Source: Opitutia bacterium
GTDB taxonomy: Bacteria > Verrucomicrobiota > Kiritimatiellia > CAIQIC01 > Lenti-01
DNA length: 40,248 bases
NCBI GenBank assembly: GCA_009928955.1
Contig: SABN01000020.1
Coordinates: 1 to 40,248, forward strand
Direction: 5' to 3'
This document shows positions 8,502-35,096 of the stretch, piece after piece. The translations under genes and the position numbers were made by a program. How positions within the stretch are numbered: position 1 is the first letter of the stretch; each line of letters begins with the position of its first letter. The notes under the pieces are model-generated. The model saw only the letters and a list, made by a program, of their open reading frames with translations. It made no database searches and was not told where the DNA came from.

Positions 8502-9941
8502 ATGTTCCGCCGCATGAGGAAAGGACTCCATGGCGGCTGGCTTTTCATCGCGCTGGCGTGGGCGGCGCCGAGCGGGGCGCAGGCGCCCGGACCGGATGCG
8601 GTGCCGCTGGCGCTGGAAGACGCCATCGAGCAGGCCTTGGCGCACAACCGCGATCTGGTGAAAGGGGCGCTGGGGCTGCAGGGGGATCGCCTCGCCGAAC
8701 AGCAGGCCCGGGAAGCCGCGCGCGGCATCCAGATCGTTCCGGAGGGGGCGGCCGGCGTGGGTCCCGCAGGCGGAGAGTGGCGCGCCGGCATGCGCGCGGA
8801 AGCGACGGGCGCCTATGGGACGCGCGTGGCGGTGGGGGGGGCGGTGCGGCAGATCGAGGTGGACGCGGCCGCCGAGGATCGCCGCGCCGAGGTGCGGGTG
8901 GAGGTGTCGCAACCATTGTTCCGCCGGTTCGGTCCGCTGATCCAGAATGAGCCCGTCGTGACGGCGAACGAGACGTTGCTGGCGGCGCGGCGCGCCTGGG
9001 AGCGGGACCGCTCCGCGCTGGTCGTGCGCGTGGTGGAGCTTTACGAGGGGCTGATCCACTTGCGCCATCAGGTTGAAAGCGACGAGGCTTTCGCCGTCCG
9101 CATGGAAAAGCTGTGGAGGCTGGCCGGGGCGCGCGAGCCGCAAGGGAAGACGACCCGCACGGAAGTGCTGCGCATGGACCTGCAGCGCGGCGAAGCGCAA
9201 TCCCGCCTGGAGGCGGAACGGTCGCAACTGGCCATCCAGTTCCAGGAATTCGCCGATTTGCTGGGCCTGCCGCTGGAATCGGCCTTCCGCCTGACGCCGC
9301 CGGCGATGCTGGATCTCGATGTCGCGGAGGCCGGCCGCGCCTTGGCCGTCGCGCTGGATGAACGGCCCGACTACGCCCAGGCCTTGCACGACATCGAAAC
9401 CGGCGACCGCCGCCTGCGGATCGCCCGGCGCAACCTCCTGCCGGACCTGAAGCTTTCCGCGCGCCAGACCACCTTCGGCGCGGGGCCCGAATGGAGCGAT
9501 GCCGGGCGGCTCGACGAAGACGACTGGTTCGTTGGCCTGACCGCCGACATGAACCTGAACCTGCGGGGGGCGCATCTGGAGGTGGCGCGCTCCGGCGTGG
9601 ATGCCGAAGCCCGGCGCCAAGTCGCGGAAATCGTGCGCAACCGGCTTGCCGTCGAGGTCCATGCGGGGCTGGCCACCTATCGCCGCACGCGCGCCGAACT
9701 GCAACTGGCCGCGCGCAACCGCGAGTTGGCGGCCAACCGCGCCGAGTTGGCGAAGGCCTTGTTCGAGGCGGGCCGCGCCAGCGCAGACTCGGTTTCGGAT
9801 GCCGAAGCCGATCGAATCCGGGCCGAGCTGAACGAGCTGTCCGCGCGCCGCGAGGCCTCGGTTTCCGCCTACCGTCTTTTGCATGTCCTGGGCACGCTGG
9901 TGCCGGCGCCCCGGGAAATCCTGCGCAATGAAAAGGAATGA
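8502..9941 (+). CDS. TolC-family outer-membrane efflux protein
   Basis: The 479-aa protein begins with a signal peptide (basic n-region RRMRKG, hydrophobic WLFIALAWAAPSG, probable cleavage after AQA). The body shows the two-fold pattern of outer-membrane efflux proteins: ALEDAIEQALAHNRDL at the N-terminus, long coiled helices rich in Arg/Glu/Ala (about 150-245 and 365-450), and DERPDYAQALHDIETGDRRLRIARRNLLPDL opening the second repeat. Two ATGs (8502 and 8514) are possible and neither has a good Shine-Dalgarno. It should form the outer-membrane duct of a tripartite exporter with the two following genes, which start 7 and 4 nt after their upstream neighbours. Confidence 0.9.
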   Translation: MFRRMRKGLHGGWLFIALAWAAPSGAQAPGPDAVPLALEDAIEQALAHNRDLVKGALGLQGDRLAEQQAREAARGIQIVPEGAAGVGPAGGEWRAGMRAEATGAYGTRVAVGGAVRQIEVDAAAEDRRAEVRVEVSQPLFRRFGPLIQNEPVVTANETLLAARRAWERDRSALVVRVVELYEGLIHLRHQVESDEAFAVRMEKLWRLAGAREPQGKTTRTEVLRMDLQRGEAQSRLEAERSQLAIQFQEFADLLGLPLESAFRLTPPAMLDLDVAEAGRALAVALDERPDYAQALHDIETGDRRLRIARRNLLPDLKLSARQTTFGAGPEWSDAGRLDEDDWFVGLTADMNLNLRGAHLEVARSGVDAEARRQVAEIVRNRLAVEVHAGLATYRRTRAELQLAARNRELAANRAELAKALFEAGRASADSVSDAEADRIRAELNELSARREASVSAYRLLHVLGTLVPAPREILRNEKE

Positions 9942-9948
9942 GCGACGC

Positions 9949-11157
9949 ATGAAAGCCAGATGGATCTTCGCGGGGTTGATTTTCCCGCTGCTGGGGGCCA
10001 GTTGCGGCCGGACCGGGGAGGAACCTCCGCGCACGGCGGTGGCGACGCGCGGCGGCATCCGCATGGCCGTTCCGTTCCAAGGCGAGCTGGAGGCGCGCCG
10101 CGTGGAGATGGTCGCCGTTGGCGTGCAAGGCTCCGCCGTGCTGGCGGATCTGGTGGCCGAGGGCGCCCGCGTGGAGGCTGGTGATCTGCTCGCGCGCTTC
10201 GACGCCTCGCAGATCGAGCAGGATCTCGCGCGGCAGGAGAACGATCTCGTTCGCGCGCGGCAAGAGCTCGAGAGCCTGGAGAAGGCGGAGCTTCCGCTCG
10301 AGTTGCTGGAACTGGACTCCAAGCGCACCGATGCGCGCACCGAGCGGGAGGCCGAGGAACGCTTCCTCGAAGCGGCGCGCGGCCTGATGGAACGCGGCCT
10401 GATGTCGGAAGGCGAGGTGGCCCAGCAGGAGCGGAAGGTGGAAGGGTTGCAGGCGCGCGGCGAGCAGTTGGAAACGCGCATCGAACTGACGCGCATGCAT
10501 ATGCACGCGGCCCGGCTGGCCAAGGCGCGCGCGGCGCTGGAGGCGGCGGAGCGCCAGCGCGATTTCACGGCGCGGCAACTCGCCTTGTGCGAAGTGCGCG
10601 CGCCGGTCGCGGGCGTGGCGACGTTGGTGCCGCTGCCGGTGGGCGGTGAATACCGCACTGCCCACGTCGGCGACACGTTGTTCCGCAATCAAGCCTTTCT
10701 TTGCCTGCCCGATCCATCGGAGCATGTCCTGCGCGGATACGTGGGCGAAGCGGAATTGCCGTGGGTGAAGGCCGGCCATGCGGTCGAAGCCGTTCCGGCC
10801 GCGTATCCGAACGTGCGCCTTTCCGGCCGCGTCGAAAGCGTCGGGGGGATGGCCCAGACGCGCCCCGGGCAGCCCATCTGGCGGAAGTTCTTCCCCGTGC
10901 AGATCGCGCTCGATCCCCTTTCCGAACCGATGCCGGTCGGCATCTCCGTCCGCGCGGAGATCATCGCCGGGGAATCGTCCGATGCGCTCTGGTTGCCGCG
11001 CGAGGCCGTCGAATGGCTCGGATCCCAGGCCATCGTGCGGCGGCTTTCGGGCCAGGGCGCCGCCGAGGAGGTTTCCGTCCGGACGGGCTTGGCCGATGCC
11101 GCGCGACTGGAAATCGTCGAAGGGTTGGCCGAAGGCGACCGGGTGCTTCTGCCCTGA
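9949..11157 (+). CDS. HlyD/MacA-family membrane fusion (periplasmic adaptor) protein
   Basis: The 402-aa protein has an N-terminal signal with a possible lipobox (LLGASC, Cys19; Gly at -3 is atypical). Next come a lipoyl/barrel half (about 45-85), a long coiled-coil hairpin (about 86-210, EQDLARQENDLVRARQELESLEK and the return helix QRDFTARQLALCEVRAPVAG), the second lipoyl half and beta-barrel (VRGYVGEAELPWVKAG, PVGISVRAEI), and a membrane-proximal domain ending EGLAEGDRVLLP. This is the order of MacA-type adaptors. ATG 9949 has AAGGA upstream within the end of the TolC gene; an earlier ATG at 9928 would overlap it. Its job is to bridge the permease and the TolC-like channel. Confidence 0.9.
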   Translation: MKARWIFAGLIFPLLGASCGRTGEEPPRTAVATRGGIRMAVPFQGELEARRVEMVAVGVQGSAVLADLVAEGARVEAGDLLARFDASQIEQDLARQENDLVRARQELESLEKAELPLELLELDSKRTDARTEREAEERFLEAARGLMERGLMSEGEVAQQERKVEGLQARGEQLETRIELTRMHMHAARLAKARAALEAAERQRDFTARQLALCEVRAPVAGVATLVPLPVGGEYRTAHVGDTLFRNQAFLCLPDPSEHVLRGYVGEAELPWVKAGHAVEAVPAAYPNVRLSGRVESVGGMAQTRPGQPIWRKFFPVQIALDPLSEPMPVGISVRAEIIAGESSDALWLPREAVEWLGSQAIVRRLSGQGAAEEVSVRTGLADAARLEIVEGLAEGDRVLLP

Positions 11158-25218: not shown

Positions 25219-25698
25219 ATGGCGATTGCGGCAAATACCCGGTTGGGACAAGGCGTGGTGATCCATCAGCCGGATCTGGTGAACCTCTACGGCTGCGCGA
25301 TCGGCGACGGGACCCGGATCGGGGCGTTCGTCGAAATCCAGCGGGGCGCCGTGATCGGGGCCCGGTGCAAGATTTCATCGCATACGTTCATCTGCGAGGG
25401 CGTGACCATCGAAGACGAAGTGTTTGTCGGCCACGGCGTGATGTTCATCAACGATCCGCAGCCCCGGGCGACGGCGGAAAACGGCGCGTTGCAGACCGAG
25501 GCCGACTGGACCTGCCTGCCGACCTTGGTCAAGCGCGGGGCCTCCATCGGCAGCGGGGCGGTCATCCTGTGCAATGTGACCATTGGCGAACGGGCCCTGA
25601 TCGGCGCCGGGGCCGTGGTGACCAAGGACGTGGCGCCGGGCGCCATCGTGGCCGGGGTGCCCGCTCGCCTGATGAGAAGCAAGGGAGCGAAGACATGA
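25219..25698 (+). CDS. hexapeptide-repeat N-acetyltransferase (WbpD/WlbB-like)
   Basis: The 159-aa left-handed beta-helix acetyltransferase has hexapeptide units along its whole length (IGDGTRIGAFVEIQRGAVIGARCKIS, IEDEVFVGHGV) and MFINDPQPRA, a loop characteristic of the WbpD/WlbB group. It ends VTIGERALIGAGAVVTKDVAPGAIVAGVPARLM. WbpD acetylates the 3-amino group of UDP-2-acetamido-3-amino uronic acid. The protein is a little shorter than WbpD. GGAG lies 8 nt before the ATG, and its stop overlaps the next start (ATGA). The neighbouring oxidoreductase and DegT genes support the assignment. Confidence 0.88.
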   Translation: MAIAANTRLGQGVVIHQPDLVNLYGCAIGDGTRIGAFVEIQRGAVIGARCKISSHTFICEGVTIEDEVFVGHGVMFINDPQPRATAENGALQTEADWTCLPTLVKRGASIGSGAVILCNVTIGERALIGAGAVVTKDVAPGAIVAGVPARLMRSKGAKT

Positions 25699-26717
25699 GC
25701 AAAATCATCGGCGTGGGGGTGGTGGGGTACGGGTATTGGGGACCGAATCTGGTCCGGAACCTGATGGCGAATCCGGACTGCCGGGTGCGGGGCGTCAGCG
25801 ACCTCCGGGAAAAGCAGATGGCGGCGGCCACCCTGCGCTATCCCGGGATGCTCTGCACCACCGATTGCTCCCAGATCATGAATCATCCGGACATCGACGC
25901 GGTGGTCATCGCCACGCCGGTTTCATCGCATTATCCGCTGGCCATGCAGGCGTTGAAGGCCGGGAAGCACGTGTTGGTCGAAAAGCCGCTGGCTTCCTCC
26001 TCGGAGCAATGCCAGGCGCTGATCGAGGAGGCCGCCCGGCGGAATCTGGTTCTCATGGTGGACCATACCTTCATCTACACGGGCGCGGTCCGGAAAATCA
26101 AGGAGCTGGTCGAGGGGGGGCATCTGGGCTCGCTCTATTATTATGACTCGGTCCGGGTGAATCTGGGGTTGTTCCAGCATGACGTGAACGTGCTGTGGGA
26201 TTTGGCGGTCCACGACCTGGCCATCATGGATTACGTGCTGGGCCAACCGCCGCTGGCGGTGGCGGCGACCGGCGTGGCCCATATGGCGGGACATCCCGAA
26301 AACATCGCGTTTCTGACCTGTTTCTTCGCGGACAACCTCATCGCCCATTTCCACGTCAACTGGCTGGCGCCGGTCAAGATCCGGCGCACCTTGATTGGCG
26401 GGAGCCAGAAGATGATCGTCTACGACGATCTGGAGCCGAGCGAGAAGATCAAGGTGTATGACAAGGGCATCAACTGGGCCGACACGCCGGAAGGGGTCTA
26501 CCGCATGATCAACGGTTATCGGACCGGGGATATGTGGGCTCCGCAGCTGGTTGGCAGCGAAGCCTTGGGCGTCGAAGTGGCGCACTTCATCGACTGCATC
26601 GGTTCCGGCGCAAAGCCGATCACCGACGGCGCGGTGGGACGGCGCGTGGTTCAGATCCTCGAGGCGGCTTCGGCTTCAATGGCGCAGCGCGGCCACCCCG
26701 TGGAACTGGAGGGATAG
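25695..26717 (+). CDS. Gfo/Idh/MocA-family oxidoreductase (WbpB/WlbA-like)
   Basis: The 340-aa NAD(P)-dependent sugar oxidoreductase has a Rossmann motif GYGYWGPN (11-18), then ATPVSSHYPLAMQALKAGKHVLVEKPLA with the EKP motif (96-98). The C-terminal domain has DLAVHDLAIMDYVLG, containing the HD pair near the sugar. In the Wbp pathway this enzyme oxidises C3 of UDP-GlcNAc uronic acid to supply the 3-keto sugar for the DegT aminotransferase that follows 3 nt later. Substrate specificity is inferred from the flanking acetyltransferase and aminotransferase; other Gfo/Idh enzymes have similar motifs. Confidence 0.88.
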   Translation: MSKIIGVGVVGYGYWGPNLVRNLMANPDCRVRGVSDLREKQMAAATLRYPGMLCTTDCSQIMNHPDIDAVVIATPVSSHYPLAMQALKAGKHVLVEKPLASSSEQCQALIEEAARRNLVLMVDHTFIYTGAVRKIKELVEGGHLGSLYYYDSVRVNLGLFQHDVNVLWDLAVHDLAIMDYVLGQPPLAVAATGVAHMAGHPENIAFLTCFFADNLIAHFHVNWLAPVKIRRTLIGGSQKMIVYDDLEPSEKIKVYDKGINWADTPEGVYRMINGYRTGDMWAPQLVGSEALGVEVAHFIDCIGSGAKPITDGAVGRRVVQILEAASASMAQRGHPVELEG

Positions 26718-26720
26718 AGC

Positions 26721-27824
26721 ATGATTCCGTTCGTGGATTTGAAGGCGCAGTATCGGAGCATCAAGCCGGAAATCGATGCGGCGATCGGGCGGGTGCTGGA
26801 GACGGGCGCGTTCGCCTTGGGTCCCGCCGTGGCCGATTTCGAAAAGCAGTTCGCCCCGTATGGCGGGGTGGCCTTCGCCGCCGGCGTGAACACGGGAACC
26901 AGCGCCCTGCATTTGGCGCTGCTGGCGCTGGGCGTCGGGCGCGGCGACGAAGTCATCGCGCCGGCCATGACGTTCATCGCGACGGTTTCGGCCATCGACT
27001 ACACGGGGGCGCGCCCGGTGCTGGTCGATGTGGAGCCCGGCACCTGCACGATGGACCCCGCGAAGATCGAGGCGGCCATCACGCCGCGCACCAAGGCGAT
27101 CCTGCCGGTGCATCTCTATGGCCAGTGCGCCGACATGGATCCGATTCTGGAGATCGCCAAGAAGCACGGGTTGCCGGTGGTGGAGGATTGCGCCCAGGCG
27201 CACGGCGCGGAATACAAGGGGCGCCGGGCCGGCAGCATGGGGGTGATGGGCTGTTTCAGCTTCTATCCCGGGAAGAACCTGGGGGCCTATGGCGAAGGCG
27301 GGGCCGTGGTCACGGACCAGCCGGCGCACGACAAGGCGATCCGGATGCTGCGCGATTGGGGCACGGACAAAAAGTACTACCATGATCTGAAGGGGTACAA
27401 CTACCGCATGGAAGGCATCCAAGGGGCGGTTCTGGGCGTCAAGATGAAGTACATCGAGGAATGGACCGAAAATCGCCGCGCCGCGGCGAAGCTCTATCGC
27501 GAACGATTGGCGGGAATACCGGGCGTCCGGGTGTCGCAAGAAGCGATGGATCGCCGGCACGTCTACCATGTCTTCGCCGTTTTCGTGGAGAACCGCGACG
27601 AAGTGGCCAAGCGGATGCAGGAAGCCGGCGTTGGCGTCGGCATCCATTATCCCATCCCGGTCCACTTGCAGAAATGCTTCGCCGAACTGGGATACGAGCG
27701 CGGCGATTTCCCCGTGGCGGAGCGGATCGGCGCCGAAGAGCTTTCCCTGCCGATTTTCCCGGAGTTGAGCCGGGAGCAAATCGATCAGGTCGTCTCCGAA
27801 CTGGAGAAATCCATCCGTGGCTGA
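26721..27824 (+). CDS. DegT/DnrJ/EryC1 sugar aminotransferase (WbpE/WlbC-like)
   Basis: The 367-aa PLP enzyme adds an amino group to a keto-sugar nucleotide. It begins IPFVDLKAQYRSIKPEIDAAI (family start) and has NTGTSALHLAL, VVEDCAQAHGA (PLP-contact Asp156), CFSFYPGKNLGAYGEGG with PLP Lys185, and GYNYRMEGIQGAVL. HYPIPVHLQKCFAELGY near the C-terminus is typical of WbpE and its relatives, which convert the 3-keto group of UDP-GlcNAcA to a 3-amine. GGAGG precedes the ATG. Together with the two upstream genes it covers the oxidation, amination and acetylation steps; WbpA (UDP-GlcNAc dehydrogenase) and the WbpI epimerase are not in the window. Confidence 0.92.
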   Translation: MIPFVDLKAQYRSIKPEIDAAIGRVLETGAFALGPAVADFEKQFAPYGGVAFAAGVNTGTSALHLALLALGVGRGDEVIAPAMTFIATVSAIDYTGARPVLVDVEPGTCTMDPAKIEAAITPRTKAILPVHLYGQCADMDPILEIAKKHGLPVVEDCAQAHGAEYKGRRAGSMGVMGCFSFYPGKNLGAYGEGGAVVTDQPAHDKAIRMLRDWGTDKKYYHDLKGYNYRMEGIQGAVLGVKMKYIEEWTENRRAAAKLYRERLAGIPGVRVSQEAMDRRHVYHVFAVFVENRDEVAKRMQEAGVGVGIHYPIPVHLQKCFAELGYERGDFPVAERIGAEELSLPIFPELSREQIDQVVSELEKSIRG

Positions 27825-27885
27825 ACGGGTCCAGAAACCGGGCCGGGTCAGTCCCGCCCGCCACGCCCAATCGGCGGAGTCCACG

Positions 27886-28506
27886 ATGCCTGAGGAAATC
27901 CACCAGGCGCAACGCTTGCGGGACGAACGGGGGTTGGATGAGATGCTTGCCCTATATGGCCAGCACCTCGGGGGTCTCAGCGCCCAGGATTTTCGGATGC
28001 GGCGGGTGATTTGGCGCGCGCTGGTCAAGTCGTGCGGCGAGAATTTGCAGGTGGGGGCGGGCGCCTTGTTCCGGAACATCGAGACGTTTGAAATCGGGGA
28101 CCAGGTGTGCATCGGGCCTCAAAGCTACATCCAGGGAATGCATGATGGCCATTGCGTGATCGGGCACCATGTTTGGATCGGGCCGCAGGCATTTCTGGAT
28201 GCGCGCGATCTCGAGTTGGGCAACTATGTCGGATGGGGGCCGGGGGCCCGGTCGCTTGAATCCCAGCACACGGGCCAGCCGGTCCATCTTCCCCTCATCC
28301 AGACCGATCTGGACATCCAGCCCGTTCGGATCCAGGAGGGTGCGGATATCGGCACCAATGCGGTCATCATGCCGGGCGTGACCGTCGGGCGCGGCGCCAT
28401 CGTGGGGGCGGGGGCCGTGGTGACCCGGGATGTCCGCCCTTTCGCCATTGTCACGGGAGTGCCGGCCCGGTTCTTGCGTTGGAGAGAGGGGCATGAAGCA
28501 TCCTGA
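27886..28506 (+). CDS. hexapeptide-repeat acyltransferase
   Basis: The 206-aa protein has an N-terminal helical part (about 1-50) and a left-handed beta-helix (about 55-200): VGAGALFRNIETFEIGDQVCIGPQSYIQG, HVWIGPQAFLDARDLELGNYVGWG, and VTVGRGAIVGAGAVVTRDVRPFAIVTGVPARFL. SLESQHTG and a DLDIQPVRIQEGADIGTNAVIMPGV segment place it in the LbH acetyltransferase family, probably sugar O- or N-acyltransferases of polysaccharide clusters. ATG 27886 with GGAG 7 nt upstream is preferred; GTG 27817 would overlap the previous gene by 8 nt and add 23 residues without family character. Confidence 0.85.
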   Translation: MPEEIHQAQRLRDERGLDEMLALYGQHLGGLSAQDFRMRRVIWRALVKSCGENLQVGAGALFRNIETFEIGDQVCIGPQSYIQGMHDGHCVIGHHVWIGPQAFLDARDLELGNYVGWGPGARSLESQHTGQPVHLPLIQTDLDIQPVRIQEGADIGTNAVIMPGVTVGRGAIVGAGAVVTRDVRPFAIVTGVPARFLRWREGHEAS

Positions 28507-28581
28507 TCCATCCGGGCCTTCCTTTGATCGAACCGGAAACGGCCATCCGGCCGCAGACCGCTCCGGATTCCCGCCATCGCC

Positions 28582-29520
28582 ATGAAAAAAACACTCATCA
28601 GCCTGATCACGCCCGCCTTCAATGAGGCCCAGAACCTGCCGCGCCTCTACGGGCGGATTTGCGAGGCGCTGGACCCGTTGGCCGATGTCGCGTGGGAATG
28701 GATCGTCGTCGACGACCATTCCGCGGACGACACGTTTCCGGTCGTCGCGGAGATCGCCGCGCGAGACCCAAGAGTGCGCGGGATGCGCCTGTCCCGGAAC
28801 GCCGGCTCCCACATCGCCTTGCGGCTGGGGCTTTCCAAAATGAACGGGGATTGCGCGGTCGCCTTGGTCGGCGATCTGCAAGACCCGCCCGAAATCATTT
28901 CGGAAATGCTGGAGGTTTGGCGGGGCGGAACCCAAGTGGTGTGGGCCGTCCGGGAAAGCCGCAAGGGGGAAGATGCGGCCAAAATCCTGTTTTCCCGGTT
29001 TTACTACTGGATCATGCGGCGGATCGTCGGCTTGAAGGACCTTCCCTCCATGGGCGCGGATTTCTTCCTGGCCGACCGCCGGGTCATCAATGTGCTGATG
29101 GAATTCAACGAGTCCAACGTCAGCATCTTGGCGCTGCTGACGTGGGTGGGATTCCGGCAAGGCCGGATTTGCTACGAAAAGCAGGAGCGGGCGGGCGGGG
29201 AATCGGGCTGGACCTTCGAGAAAAAAGTGAAGATCGCGATCGACTCGATCACGTCGTTCTCCTATTTCCCCATCCGCATGATGAGCTATGCCGGCATGGC
29301 GGTCGCTCTTTCCGGCTTTCTGTACTCCCTGGTCATCGTCGCCAACAAGTTTCTGGGCAATCCGAGCAAGGGATGGTCCGAGTTGATGATCGTCCTGCTG
29401 ATTCTCGGAGGGCTTCAAATGTTGATGACCGGCGTGCTCGGCGAGTATGTCTGGCGAACGCTGGATGAATCGCGGCGGCGGCCCCGGTTCATGGTCGAAA
29501 ACGACACCCGTCCCGGGTGA
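28582..29520 (+). CDS. GtrB/DPM1-like polyprenyl-phosphate glycosyltransferase (GT2)
   Basis: The 312-aa enzyme has a cytoplasmic GT2 domain (1 to about 225) and two C-terminal membrane helices (about 232-256 and 266-290). LITPAFNEAQNLPRL, IVVDDHSADDTF, RLSRNAGSHIALRLGL, LVGDLQDPPE and GADFFLADRRVI match the GtrB/ArnC/dolichol-phosphate-mannose synthase group, which put a sugar onto undecaprenyl phosphate. That lipid-linked sugar is the donor type used by ArnT/PMT-like enzymes such as 36289-37980 in this operon. No Shine-Dalgarno is obvious before ATG 28582. Confidence 0.9.
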   Translation: MKKTLISLITPAFNEAQNLPRLYGRICEALDPLADVAWEWIVVDDHSADDTFPVVAEIAARDPRVRGMRLSRNAGSHIALRLGLSKMNGDCAVALVGDLQDPPEIISEMLEVWRGGTQVVWAVRESRKGEDAAKILFSRFYYWIMRRIVGLKDLPSMGADFFLADRRVINVLMEFNESNVSILALLTWVGFRQGRICYEKQERAGGESGWTFEKKVKIAIDSITSFSYFPIRMMSYAGMAVALSGFLYSLVIVANKFLGNPSKGWSELMIVLLILGGLQMLMTGVLGEYVWRTLDESRRRPRFMVENDTRPG

Positions 29521-29586
29521 CCCGTCCGGGGGACGTCGGCAGACCCAGCGAAAAGCGGAATTCAATCGGATTCGAAACAAGGACAT

Positions 29587-30498
29587 ATGCATACAAGCCC
29601 AGAAGGTTTCCTCAACGTCAAATTCGCGCTGGGACAGTTGCTGGTGGAGGGCGGCGAGCCGGCGCGGAATCTGGAGCGCGCCGTGGAGATGATCCGGCGC
29701 GCGGCGAAAAGCCAATGCGATTTGGTTCTCCTGCCGGAGGTCTTGGACCTGGGGTGGACCCATCCCAGCGCCAAGAACGAAGCCATGCCGATCCCGGGGG
29801 CCTACAGCGATGTCTTGACCGCGGCGGCGAAAGAGAACCGGATCTATGTCTGCGCGGGACTGACGGAGCTGGACGGCCGGACGGTCTACAACAGCGCCAT
29901 TTTGATCGACGATTCCGGCGAGATCCTCCTGAAGTATCGGAAGATCAATGCGCTCGACGTCGAGCAGGAGTTCTACGCCATCGGGACGACGCTCAACGTG
30001 ATCGACACGAAATTCGGACGGATGGGGTTGAACATCTGCGCCGACAACTATTTCGACTCGCTGCACATCGGCCACACGCTGGCGCGGATGGGGGCGCAGA
30101 TCATCCTGTCTCCTTCGTCCTGGACGGTGGGGCACGATGTCACGGAGGAAGACGATCCCTACGGTGAAAAGTGGATGAAGCCCTATCGCGTGCTGGCGGA
30201 GTACCACGACCTGGTCATTCTCGGGACGACCAGCGTCGGGTACATCGTGGGCGGTCCCTACGAAGGGAAGAAGATGGTGGGCAGTTCGCTCGCGGTGAGC
30301 CGCGAGGGGCTTTTGGCGAAAGGGATCTACAATGAATTCGCCGGGGAACTCATCCCCGTGGAATTCACGGTTCCCGTCCGCAGGGAGAAGGGGACCGACA
30401 TCGGGATCCGGCTGAAGTCGATGGGGTATGTGTTCGATGAACCGCCTCCGCGCAGCAAATGGTCGATGGATTTCCACGAGAAATCCAAGAGAGGATGA
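29587..30498 (+). CDS. carbon-nitrogen hydrolase (nitrilase superfamily amidase)
   Basis: The 303-aa protein has the nitrilase fold with the triad Glu51 (LLPEVLDLGW), Lys119 (KYRKINALD) and Cys151 (GLNICADNYF). The family hydrolyses or transfers amides; some members act as glutaminase or ammonia donor, as in the N-terminal domain of glutamine-dependent NAD synthetase. The WTVGHDVTEEDDPYG and TTSVGYIVGGPYEGKKMVG segments are consistent with an aliphatic-amidase-like branch. The next gene, a PP-loop amidotransferase, begins 5 nt after the stop. The context suggests that it releases ammonia for that enzyme; this partnership is inferred. Confidence 0.88.
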   Translation: MHTSPEGFLNVKFALGQLLVEGGEPARNLERAVEMIRRAAKSQCDLVLLPEVLDLGWTHPSAKNEAMPIPGAYSDVLTAAAKENRIYVCAGLTELDGRTVYNSAILIDDSGEILLKYRKINALDVEQEFYAIGTTLNVIDTKFGRMGLNICADNYFDSLHIGHTLARMGAQIILSPSSWTVGHDVTEEDDPYGEKWMKPYRVLAEYHDLVILGTTSVGYIVGGPYEGKKMVGSSLAVSREGLLAKGIYNEFAGELIPVEFTVPVRREKGTDIGIRLKSMGYVFDEPPPRSKWSMDFHEKSKRG

Positions 30499-30503
30499 TT
30501 TCC

Positions 30504-31676
30504 ATGAGCCAGGCAAGCGAGACCGATTACCAGATTTGCACTCGGTGCATCCATGATTCAACCGTGCCGGGAACGGTGTTCGACGAGAACGGCGTGTGCA
30601 GCTATTGCCATTTGTACGACAAGCTGGACAAGATGTTCCCGTTGGGGGCGGAAGGCGAACGGCGGCTGGCCGCGTTGACCGACCGCATCCAGCGCGCCGG
30701 CCGGGGAAAAAAGTATGACTGTGTTCTCGGGGTGAGCGGCGGCCGGGACAGCACCTACACGCTGTATTATCTGGTCAAGGTGCTGGGTTTGCGGCCATTG
30801 ACGGTCCACTTCAACGACGGCTTCGGCAATCCGGTGGCCGGGGAGAACATGAAACGATCCGCCGAGCGGCTGGGGGTGGATTTCCGGACCATCACCTCGG
30901 ACTGGCGCGAGTCCAAGGATCTGAAGATCGCCTTCCTGAAGGCCTCCACCCCGGATCTGGAGTGCGCCACGGATATCGGGATCGCAACCGCCCTGTATGG
31001 GGCCGCGGCGAAGGAAAACGTCAAGTATGTCATCATCGGGCAGTCCTTCCGGACGGAGGGGATTGCCCCGCTGGAATGGAACTATCTGGACGGGAAATAT
31101 CTGGACGCCGTCCATCGCTTGTTCGGCAAGCACAAGCTGCGCAAATGGACCCCGGAGGATCCCGGGTTCCACTTGAATGTCCGGCATATGGCCTATTATG
31201 CCGCTTGGCGGCGGATCCGCGCGATCCCCATCCTGTACTACGTTGATTACGTGCGGAAGGATGTGGACGACATCATAAAGAAAGAGTTCGACTGGGTCTA
31301 TCCCGGAGCCCACTACTTCGACGATCTGTATCAAAGCCTCATGTTCTATGTGCACCGGGTGAAGTTCGGGTTCGACCGCCGGCGCTACAACTACTCGGCC
31401 CTGATCCGGTGCGGGCAGATGGACCGGGCCGAAGCGTTGCAGCGGATGGAGCAGGTCTACGTCATCGAGGACAAGAAGGTCATCGATCTCTGCATCAAGC
31501 GGCTGGGCTTGACGGAGGCCGAGTTCGCGGAGATCATGAAGCTGCCTCCGAAAACGTTCCGGGACTATCCCACGCAATATGGCCTGATCCGCAAAATGCG
31601 GATTCCCATCTGGATCATGTCCCGGTTGCGGCTGCTGCCGGAAACCGCCTACGACAAGTATTTCAGCTGCGGCTAG
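30504..31676 (+). CDS. N-acetyl sugar amidotransferase (WbpG/PseA-like, PP-loop)
   Basis: The 390-aa ATP-pyrophosphatase-fold enzyme has a zinc-type cluster at the N-terminus (CTRC at 12-15, CSYC at 32-35), then PP-loop SGGRDSTYTLY (78-88) and the family segments TVHFNDGFGNPVAGENM and FRTEGIAPLEWNYLDGKYL. WbpG and PseA use ATP and ammonia to turn an acetamido group of a sugar into an acetamidino group. In WbpG systems the ammonia comes from HisH2/HisF2; those are absent here and a CN-hydrolase lies directly upstream. ATG 30504 has GAGGA 8 nt upstream; ATG 30495 overlaps the upstream stop and would have its Shine-Dalgarno too close. Confidence 0.92.
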   Translation: MSQASETDYQICTRCIHDSTVPGTVFDENGVCSYCHLYDKLDKMFPLGAEGERRLAALTDRIQRAGRGKKYDCVLGVSGGRDSTYTLYYLVKVLGLRPLTVHFNDGFGNPVAGENMKRSAERLGVDFRTITSDWRESKDLKIAFLKASTPDLECATDIGIATALYGAAAKENVKYVIIGQSFRTEGIAPLEWNYLDGKYLDAVHRLFGKHKLRKWTPEDPGFHLNVRHMAYYAAWRRIRAIPILYYVDYVRKDVDDIIKKEFDWVYPGAHYFDDLYQSLMFYVHRVKFGFDRRRYNYSALIRCGQMDRAEALQRMEQVYVIEDKKVIDLCIKRLGLTEAEFAEIMKLPPKTFRDYPTQYGLIRKMRIPIWIMSRLRLLPETAYDKYFSCG

Positions 31677-31718
31677 GGGTCGTCTCCGGCGCCTTGGAAG
31701 TCTTTTGGATCGTCGCAT

Positions 31719-32711
31719 ATGGCCTTCTCCTCCCGAACGAAAAGCCGGCTTCGGATCTGGCTGGGGGGGGGCGTCAGCTTGGTGGCCTTGTGGTTGGCGT
31801 TCCGCAATGTGGAATGGGGAGAGTTGGCGCGCGCCTTGGCGCTGGTGCGGCCCGGGTGGATCGCGCTGGGCATCCTGTGCACGCAACTGGAATTGACGTT
31901 GGCGGCTTGGCGGTGGCGGGTGCTGCTGCGTCCCATCGGCCGCTACCGGCTTTTGGGGGATTGTTTTTCGCTGTTCATGGTGGGCTATGCCGCCAACCAG
32001 ATCTTTCCGGCGCGCCCGGGTGAAATCATCCGCTCCGTTTTGTTTGGCCGGAAGTTCGCCGTTTCCAAGGCGGCGGTTTTGGGGACGGCGGTCGTGGAGA
32101 AGCTGGTGGATGTCGTGGCCTTGGTCCTGCTTTTGGGGCTGGCCCTTGTGTTCATCGAGGTTCCCCTGGAGATCCGCCTGTTGGGGGCGCTGTGCGGCGT
32201 TGTCTCCATCGCCGCATGGGGCATTCTCTGGTTGGTTTGCCGGCGCGCGGCCCTGTCCACCTGGCTGTTGCGGGGATTGCGCTGGACTCCGCCGGCCGTC
32301 CATCGATGGCTGGAGCAATTCCTTCGGAATTCGATTGTCGGCATGGGGGCGATCCACGATCTGGCGACGGCCTTCTCCGCCTTGGCGCTTTCGGCCGCCG
32401 TTTGGGGCGCGGGCATTCTGGTGACGCAGGCCTATTTGATGGCATTTGGATTGCAGTTGCCGTGGTATGCCCCGGTTTTCGTCTTGGTGGTCGTCAATCT
32501 CGGGATGTTGATCCCTTCGTCGCCGGCGGCCGTGGGCGTGGCGCATCTGCTCTATGTCGTGTCCCTGTCTGTTTTTGGTGTGGACAAGGCGACGGCTTTG
32601 GCGGTAGGTCTGGTTCTGCATGCCATCAGCTTTGTCCAAGTGTTGGTGGTCGGACTTCTCTGTTTTGGACATGAAAACCTGCAGGTAAAGGACATCGATG
32701 ATCAAGGGTAG
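31719..32711 (+). CDS. UPF0104 / lysylphosphatidylglycerol-synthase-TM family membrane protein
   Basis: The 330-aa polytopic protein has about eight hydrophobic helices. GYAANQIFPARPGEIIRSVLFGRKFAVSKAAVLGTAVVEKLVDVVAL and VNLGMLIPSSPAAVGVAHLLYV are the conserved loops of the MprF/AglD-like family (UPF0104). Members move or modify lipids or lipid-linked sugars, and are frequent in polysaccharide loci; a flippase-like role is plausible here but unproven. There is no MprF synthetase domain. Its 3' end overlaps the next gene by 14 nt. Confidence 0.87.
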   Translation: MAFSSRTKSRLRIWLGGGVSLVALWLAFRNVEWGELARALALVRPGWIALGILCTQLELTLAAWRWRVLLRPIGRYRLLGDCFSLFMVGYAANQIFPARPGEIIRSVLFGRKFAVSKAAVLGTAVVEKLVDVVALVLLLGLALVFIEVPLEIRLLGALCGVVSIAAWGILWLVCRRAALSTWLLRGLRWTPPAVHRWLEQFLRNSIVGMGAIHDLATAFSALALSAAVWGAGILVTQAYLMAFGLQLPWYAPVFVLVVVNLGMLIPSSPAAVGVAHLLYVVSLSVFGVDKATALAVGLVLHAISFVQVLVVGLLCFGHENLQVKDIDDQG

Positions 32712-33698: not shown

Positions 33699-35096
33699 AT
33701 GGACCCGAATTATGATGCCGCTTTTCGGAATTTCGAATACCGCTGGCCCGAGCGGTTTCCCGGGCCGCGCTGGACGCGGACCGAAGACGGGCGGGCTTTT
33801 ATCCGGAACATGCCGGAGACGGCGGAAGAACTCCAGGCCGACAGCCGCTGGCCCGCCTTTTTCCCCTCGCCGATTTGCCTGGTGACGGTGCGGCATGGCG
33901 ATGAAGTGGCGCTGGAGAAAGTGGTGGGGGCCTCGATCGTCAATCGGTTTCCCTACGTCTTGGCCTTGAGTTTTTGCCGCGTGCCCCTATCCGAACGGCA
34001 TCATCCGCGGCATCGTTTCATGGAACTGCTGGAGAAAAGCGGGGCCGCGAATGTGCAGTTCCTGTCGCCGGGGCCTTTGCTAGGCCGCGCGATGGGCGCC
34101 GTCGCGGAAATTCCGGAAGCCCAGACCCGGGAGCGGCTGAAAGCCAGCGGATTGGGAATCCGGCCGGGGGAGAGCCATGGCGCTCCGGTGTTCAACGATG
34201 CCTATATGGTGTATGAAGGACATCTGGCCCGGCCCGTGAAGGGATTTGAGGGCGAGCGGGTATATGATCGCCCGTGGGAGGATGTGGGCAGTCACCGGGT
34301 CTACTTCCTGGAGATCAACTGCATCCAGTTGCAGGAGGAGATTGCGGAAGGCCGGCGCCACATCCATTGGCGGGGTCTTCCGGTCTGGTCGCCCCGGCTC
34401 CCGTTTCAACCGGCGGAACCGCCGTCGGTTCCGGGGGAGGGATTTCAGTCCGCCTATCAGAAGGGGTATGCGCCCCGCTATGTATTTCCATCGGCGGCGA
34501 CGGCCGGGTTCGAGCAAGACGCGCGGAAACACGGGATGGCCATCAAGCATCTGGCCCCGTTGCCGGAAGACCAGGTCGAGGTGGACAACGACCGCGCGCG
34601 CTGGCCGTGCTTCTTCCCTTCTTCGCTGGCGATGATCACCACGTGGGGCGACGATGGCCGGCCCAATGTGATTCCGTGCGGGTCGACCACGGTGCTGAGC
34701 CGGAGCCCGATGATCATCGCCGCGTGCATCTCGTATGCCCGCATCAACGTGCGCTACGCGCCCCGCGCCTCGATCGATCTCCTGCGCAAGCGGGGGGCGT
34801 TCGGGTGCGCGGTCCCCTTCATCCACGAGCGAGTCGTCGCCGCGATCAAATATGCGGGGAACGTGTCGTTTCGCGACGATCCGGACAAGGTGGCCCGCTC
34901 CGGGCTGGCGGTGGAGCCGGGCGGGGAAGCGCCGGGATTGCCGGCGCTGCCGATCCAATATGACTGCCGGATCGTCGGGGAGGTCAAGCTCGGCACGCAT
35001 GCGATGTTCCTGGGGGAAGTCCGCCGGATCCGGGTCCGGACGGATGTGCAGGCGGAAAATCCGTTGAAGTGGTGCCCTTGGGGCATCGTGGAATGA
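33699..35096 (+). CDS. tandem flavin-reductase-like (FMN split-barrel) protein
   Basis: The 465-aa protein contains two related halves. The second (about 295-465) starts ARWPCFFPSSLAMITTWGDDGRPNVIPCGSTTVLSRSPMIIAACISY and matches the flavin reductase domain (FMN-binding split barrel). The first (about 48-245) starts SRWPAFFPSPICLVTVRHGDEVALEKVVGASIVNRFPYVLALSF, the same opening pattern, and keeps the later FLEINCIQLQ strand. Each half opens with RWP.FFPS, pointing to an internal duplication. Such proteins bind FMN and reduce flavin or carry out redox reactions, but their substrate in a polysaccharide locus is unknown. AGAGGA precedes the ATG; the stop overlaps the next start (ATGA). Confidence 0.82.
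   Translation: MDPNYDAAFRNFEYRWPERFPGPRWTRTEDGRAFIRNMPETAEELQADSRWPAFFPSPICLVTVRHGDEVALEKVVGASIVNRFPYVLALSFCRVPLSERHHPRHRFMELLEKSGAANVQFLSPGPLLGRAMGAVAEIPEAQTRERLKASGLGIRPGESHGAPVFNDAYMVYEGHLARPVKGFEGERVYDRPWEDVGSHRVYFLEINCIQLQEEIAEGRRHIHWRGLPVWSPRLPFQPAEPPSVPGEGFQSAYQKGYAPRYVFPSAATAGFEQDARKHGMAIKHLAPLPEDQVEVDNDRARWPCFFPSSLAMITTWGDDGRPNVIPCGSTTVLSRSPMIIAACISYARINVRYAPRASIDLLRKRGAFGCAVPFIHERVVAAIKYAGNVSFRDDPDKVARSGLAVEPGGEAPGLPALPIQYDCRIVGEVKLGTHAMFLGEVRRIRVRTDVQAENPLKWCPWGIVE

Follow-up and report, generated by a model that had tools for sequence, protein, structure and literature searches.

A nitrilase-fold hydrolase encoded beside a sugar amidotransferase in several bacterial phyla: a candidate ammonia supplier in place of HisH2/HisF2

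Where does an N-acetyl sugar amidotransferase obtain its nitrogen when its gene cluster lacks the class I pair HisH2/HisF2? This question is raised by a stretch of 40,248 nucleotides from an Opitutia bacterium (contig SABN01000020.1, positions 1 to 40,248; hereafter the window), in which a gene of the CN-hydrolase (nitrilase) superfamily is followed at once by one for a WbuX/WbpG-type amidotransferase (Table 1). The first-pass annotation, made from the sequence alone, had described a nitrilase-fold gene with E51, K119 and C151 next to a WbpG-type PP-loop amidotransferase with SGGRDS and two cysteine pairs, in an operon without HisH or HisF. These points were all confirmed: the hydrolase matches PF00795 and has the three residues in place, the amidotransferase exceeds the cut-off of TIGR03573 (WbuX; 234.6 bits against 203.2) and carries the pairs CTRC and CSYC, and the window contains no HisH- or HisF-like ORF. 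The 5-nt spacing given for the two genes is right if the amidotransferase starts at the second of its two possible ATG codons, and wrong if it starts at the first, which overlaps the hydrolase stop codon.

Table 1 Features of the window and of fused or embedded amidotransferase-type proteins in other loci.
Feature	Coordinates	Strand	Basis or remark
Hexapeptide-repeat acyltransferase (sugar N-acetyltransferase type), same cluster	25219..25698	+	PF00132; best NCBIfam NeuD/PglB/VioB, below cut-off
Gfo/Idh/MocA dehydrogenase	25695..26717	+	closest NCBIfam model UDP-GlcNAc 3-dehydrogenase, below cut-off
DegT/DnrJ/EryC1/StrS sugar aminotransferase, WbpE/QdtB-like	26721..27824	+	PF01041 3.4e-127; PDB matches include WbpE
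Second hexapeptide acyltransferase	27817..28506	+	
Family 2 glycosyltransferase	28582..29520	+	homologue often upstream of the pair in Omnitrophota
CN-hydrolase (nitrilase superfamily), proposed ammonia supplier	29587..30498	+	PF00795 8.6e-32; AF2 nitrilase fold
Catalytic Glu51 codon	29737..29739	+	invariant in all relatives that cover the site
Catalytic Lys119 codon	29941..29943	+	invariant
Catalytic Cys151 codon (ICADNY)	30037..30039	+	invariant
Signature GGPYEGKKM (residues 222-230) of amidotransferase-paired hydrolases	30250..30276	+	
ATGA overlap, hydrolase stop and possible amidotransferase start	30495..30498	+	sequence
N-acetyl sugar amidotransferase (NASAT, WbuX/WbpG type), PP-loop enzyme	30495..31676, alternative start 30504	+	TIGR03573 2e-69
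Tetracysteine motif C27/C30 and C47/C50 (numbered from 30459)	30537..30608	+	sequence; invariant in clade
PP-loop SGGRDS	30735..30752	+	sequence; conserved in clade
Class II GATase-amidotransferase fusions	L213:4112-6145, L214:4250-6076, L215:4096-6135, L216:4098-6125, L147:5071-7137		
Sixth class II GATase-amidotransferase fusion	L202:4117-6123		
WbuX-like domain between adenylation and carrier domains of NRPS	L146:3259-8913		
WbuX-like domain between adenylation and carrier domains of NRPS	L212:4525-8565	-	

The genes upstream of the pair match the logic of a 3-acetamido sugar route, from which we infer the likely substrate; in P. aeruginosa O5, WbpG is reported to turn the product of this route into an acetamidino sugar (PMC10607449). 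Downstream of the pair, at 33699-35096, the window encodes a protein of 465 aa whose C-terminal half resembles flavin reductases and whose N-terminal 300 residues have no assignment; a homologue of this protein lies in the pair's cluster in another locus (L039, 10212-11579). With a GC content of 0.597 against 0.668 for the first 26 kb of the window, the composition of the pair would fit an acquired glycan island. The dip covers positions 28000-32000, with the pair and its flanks (0.61, against 0.65-0.70 in most of the window), and suggests horizontal acquisition. Carriage by a mobile element or phage was considered and rejected: no relatives were found in PLSDB plasmids or in IMG/VR, and phage records gave only weak, partial matches of 30-31%. 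The source assembly (3.42 Mb in 345 contigs) is 90% complete with 8% contamination. That the contig itself is a contaminant was ruled out by its ValS, to which full-length copies from other genus members show 84-90% identity, so the contig belongs to the genome.

A scan based solely on the hydrolase, with patterns that included GPYEGKKM, covered 84,980 species genomes and returned 58 loci at 55-72% identity, and 55 of these also encode an amidotransferase of the window's type. The neighbourhood survey proposed by the first-pass annotation, for a hydrolase beside the amidotransferase without HisH/HisF, thus finds the arrangement in eight named phyla (Bacteroidota, Omnitrophota, Acidobacteriota, Myxococcota, Verrucomicrobiota, Pseudomonadota, Planctomycetota and Elusimicrobiota), with no HisH or HisF within about 6 kb in the paired loci, and its concern that the pairing might be confined to this genome is not borne out. 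The two genes are at most 230 nt apart in 53 of the 55 paired loci, many of them overlapping and the others usually separated by tens of nucleotides. The hydrolase comes first in 45 cases, including the window, and second in 11, all from Bacteroidota, where the genes still adjoin each other. Other neighbours are far less constant across the 58 loci (DegT in 26, SDR in 16, GT2 in 14, Gfo in 11). The adjacency of hydrolase and amidotransferase goes far beyond chance, and the pairing is confirmed as a conserved module.

Close spacing has two exceptions. The reading frame is split in L037, while in L041 three genes are inserted between the partners and a duplicated C-terminal piece of the hydrolase (9878-10075) lies directly before the amidotransferase, a remnant which indicates that the ancestral state was adjacent. 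Three of the 58 hydrolase loci lack the amidotransferase (L046, L062 and L080), the last of them ending at a contig end; in the other two, members of the hydrolase clade stand alone (L046:6016-6831 and L062:955-1767), and both genomes carry two HisH genes. Since the scan pattern contained GPYEGKKM, the invariance of GGPYEGKKM is partly a product of ascertainment, and we downgraded it as independent evidence. HMM searches with the hydrolase, which do not depend on the scan patterns, added three strong members (G641, identical with L211; G1010; G875). Each adjoins an amidotransferase and carries a form of the motif to which the first scan was blind, GGPYEGKKS and GGPYEGRKM being the variants seen in the HMM-found loci. 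In G875 (L254/L255) a single-chain fusion of hydrolase and amidotransferase was considered on the strength of two apparent one-base differences, one of them in a run of A. It was not counted, because the normal overlapping arrangement of its relatives explains it, and with this sole candidate rejected no natural fusion of the two proteins was found. Pairwise distances among the hydrolases track those among the amidotransferases (matrix correlation r = 0.82, n = 53), which partly reflects shared ancestry.

In a tree of 158 amidotransferases (57 with a hydrolase neighbour, 85 with HisH/HisF neighbours and 16 others), all 57 hydrolase-neighbour sequences fall into one clade with an SH-aLRT support of 100, and the nearest outsider by profile score, L183, belongs to a HisH/HisF cluster. 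The simplest reading of this topology would be one replacement of the partner followed by spread of the paired clade, probably via horizontal transfer. The clade has its own residues: 20 positions are fixed in it and different in HisH/HisF-paired members, clustering at 119-128, 146-150, 196-198 and 284-300, and a clade-specific HFNDGFxNP stands near the PP-loop strand where others have a DNGW-like segment. These differences would be expected if the clade had changed its chemistry, installing another nitrogen group on a different acceptor while the hydrolase gives the nitrogen or processes the product. We consider this quite unlikely, as the window's enzyme scores above the TIGR03573 cut-off, retains the tetracysteine motif and the PP-loop, and has neighbours that fit the 3-acetamido sugar route. 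All 36 A2 members match TIGR03573 at E<=1e-5, and the AF2 model of the amidotransferase (pLDDT 90.8) has a Legionella NASAT (8wex) as its best fold match in the PDB.

A census made independently of the hydrolase, in which TIGR03573 was run against 338 genomes from the phylum of the window and 296 from Bacteroidota and the neighbourhoods were read, gave 110 loci of the amidotransferase type: 85 with HisH and/or HisF nearby, 22 with neither partner, and three with the hydrolase (the window, L206 from a seed genome, and L211, which is not from a seed genome). In none of the 110 do the hydrolase and HisH/HisF occur together. Copies of hisH2 and hisF2 elsewhere in the genome had been named in advance as a finding that would speak against the hydrolase as ammonia supplier, and they are indeed present here: contig C314 of the same genome carries a second TIGR03573 gene adjoining HisH2 and HisF2. 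This cassette has a WbuX of its own, and the host genome holds both arrangements, each with its own amidotransferase. That HisH2/HisF2 from such a cassette (HisH2-HisF2-WbuX2 in this genome) serve the window's amidotransferase in trans, with the hydrolase merely incidental, is nevertheless very improbable in view of the 50 hydrolase genomes, 48 of them with the pair and most of them incomplete MAGs, which we searched for HisH (E<=1e-20) and HisF-type proteins (E<=1e-40). HisH is absent from 19, single in 24 and multiple in seven, and HisF-type matches are absent from 17, all of which are among the 19 without HisH and all of which have the pair; they include Bacteroidota, Omnitrophota, Myxococcota and Verrucomicrobiota. 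Some of these 17 absences may be due to gaps in incomplete MAGs, but such gaps are unlikely to account for all of them. The 17 pair-bearing genomes therefore argue that the amidotransferase is independent of HisH2/HisF2, and the pairing is, furthermore, kept in both gene orders.

What kind of enzyme is the hydrolase? Its 303 residues contain a PF00795 domain (110.9 bits against a cut-off of 23.2) and the Glu-Lys-Cys triad, which place it in the CN-hydrolase superfamily, a second active-site glutamate, E126, is present in 50 of 57 relatives, and its AF2 model has a nitrilase fold (pLDDT 90.5). No NCBIfam equivalog scores above its cut-off. The first-pass annotation had allowed that the hydrolase might group with enzymes of an unrelated substrate; it forms a clade of its own, with no named family above cut-off. 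A grouping with the glutaminase domain of NadE was ruled out by profiles and motifs: archaeal nitrilase, carbamoylputrescine amidase and Nit2 are closer, the NAD+ synthase model gives 47.1 bits against a cut-off of 479, the hydrolase has CADNY and not CEDxW, and it lacks the PNYxxFDE loop at which the NadE glutamine site is located (PMC6946656). The host genome also encodes an ordinary fused glutamine-dependent NadE, which has ICEDSWW and PNYGVFDE. With the NadE motifs missing, the statement that the hydrolase is a NadE glutaminase is unsupported, while the statement that it works like one is still plausible; the parallel with NAD synthetase drawn at first pass accordingly survives as one of function and fails as one of sequence. 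Nitrogen could come from glutamine or from some other amide.

Two sister hydrolases (L017/L018, from G072 and G031), about 43% identical, have GPW.GW in place of GGPYEGKKM, and one of them sits near sulfatase, radical SAM and desaturase-like genes. No amidotransferase was found in the stretch read around these two or around a weaker relative (G633), from which GGPYEGKKM is also missing.

The affinities of the hydrolase bear on another explanation, namely that it catalyses a different reaction of the sugar pathway, in which an acyl, carbamoyl or amide group on the sugar is hydrolysed or transferred, and that the amidotransferase runs on free ammonia. Profile searches do place it nearest to nitrilase, N-carbamoylputrescine amidase and deaminated-glutathione amidase, and not to NadE; the best Foldseek matches of its model are mouse Nit2, a carbamoylputrescine amidase from a plant and an archaeal amidase whose structure contains glutaramide; and single-domain NadE enzymes work on free ammonia (PMC3376133), which could likewise be an alternative nitrogen source for the amidotransferase. 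A separate step would, however, sit poorly with a hydrolase that replaces HisH/HisF, never co-occurring with them in the 110 census loci, and that accompanies one amidotransferase clade only, in a family whose other members mostly have either HisH/HisF next door or a class II glutaminase in the same chain. We regard this explanation as unlikely.

Taken together, the pairing across phyla, the mutual exclusion with HisH/HisF, the dedicated amidotransferase clade, the intact motifs of both proteins and the genomes devoid of detectable HisH/HisF support, as the best reading and a likely one, that the pair is a two-subunit, ammonia-channelling sugar amidotransferase in which the hydrolase replaces HisH2/HisF2. 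The Glu-Lys-Cys site of the nitrilase-fold subunit would release ammonia by hydrolysing an amide, most probably glutamine. The PP-loop subunit would use ATP to activate the carbonyl of the sugar's N-acetyl group, yielding AMP and PPi, and would add the ammonia there, so that the acetamido group becomes an acetamidino group. The hydrolase would thus take the place that the class I pair HisH2/HisF2 has in WbpG/WbuX systems. A complex of the two proteins, a tunnel and ammonia as their common intermediate are predicted by this scheme, as is the donor glutamine, and the amidine product by family assignment. The stand-in role proposed at first pass agrees with all the genomic tests applied, and the first-pass interpretation as a whole is partly supported. 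In a more specific form, which we hold to be moderately likely, a PP-loop sugar amidotransferase recruited a nitrilase that does not belong to the NadE lineage, as a second and independent case of a nitrilase-type ammonia supplier. This nitrilase would have ousted HisH2/HisF2, possibly with a donor other than glutamine, leaving one enzyme family with ammonia sources of class I, class II and nitrilase type.

The census loci with neither partner point to further sources of ammonia in the family. Five of the 22 encode proteins of 609-689 aa in which a class II glutaminase (beginning MCGI; GATase_6/7, Ntn, GlmS/PurF-like) is fused in front of the amidotransferase domain, the whole scoring below the TIGR03573 cut-off. 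In two others a WbuX-like PP-loop domain lies inside a non-ribosomal peptide synthetase, where it may form amidines or another nitrogen group on peptides, and in three the gene is near a contig end. As the PP-loop family already employs at least two classes of glutaminase, a nitrilase-type protein as third supplier is a natural reading, and these amidotransferases seem prone to exchanging their source of ammonia.

Nitrilase-type (class IV) glutaminases are listed solely as a component of NAD synthetase (PMC3376133), and our literature search, outside which most subscription papers lay, returned no description of the hydrolase-amidotransferase pairing. The pairing suggests a route of ammonia supply to cell-surface sugar synthesis that has not been described before. 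If true, this would be the second synthetase with a nitrilase-type glutaminase, a module that can then be recruited anew; it would explain the synthesis of amidino sugars in genomes without HisH/HisF, and the pair would be a genomic marker of amidino glycans in lineages with few cultured members, Omnitrophota among them. With related PP-loop amidotransferases using HisH/HisF, class II or nitrilase partners, the family would offer a natural experiment in glutaminase swaps and the rebuilding of tunnels.

Among known systems, WbpG-HisH2-HisF2 of P. aeruginosa and WbuX-WbuY-WbuZ of E. coli O145 share with the window the amidotransferase family TIGR03573, the tetracysteine motif and a sugar cluster with WbpB/WbpD/WbpE-like genes, whereas the window locus has a nitrilase-fold hydrolase and no HisH/HisF, and its amidotransferase belongs to a distinct clade with its own motif residues. 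The NASAT of Legionella pneumophila (8wex; PMC10607449), the best match of the amidotransferase in sequence as well as fold, is about 20% identical over the fold. The fused class II GATase-WbuX proteins resemble the pair in joining a NASAT-type PP-loop domain to an ammonia source other than HisH, but their glutaminase is of the Ntn, GlmS/PurF-like type and in the same chain, while the nitrilase is encoded by an adjoining gene here. Of the features of class IV (NadE-type) amidotransferases, the pair has the nitrilase component and the PP-loop partner and lacks the sequence features of the NadE glutaminase. The nearest precedent comes from Thermus thermophilus, in whose NAD synthetase the nitrilase and PP-loop subunits are encoded by separate, clustered genes and form a glutamine-using complex (PMC3376133), so that a split nitrilase/PP-loop arrangement is not new in principle; the synthetase of the window, in contrast, is of another family with another acceptor, and its hydrolase, by profile and active-site motifs, is not related to NadE.
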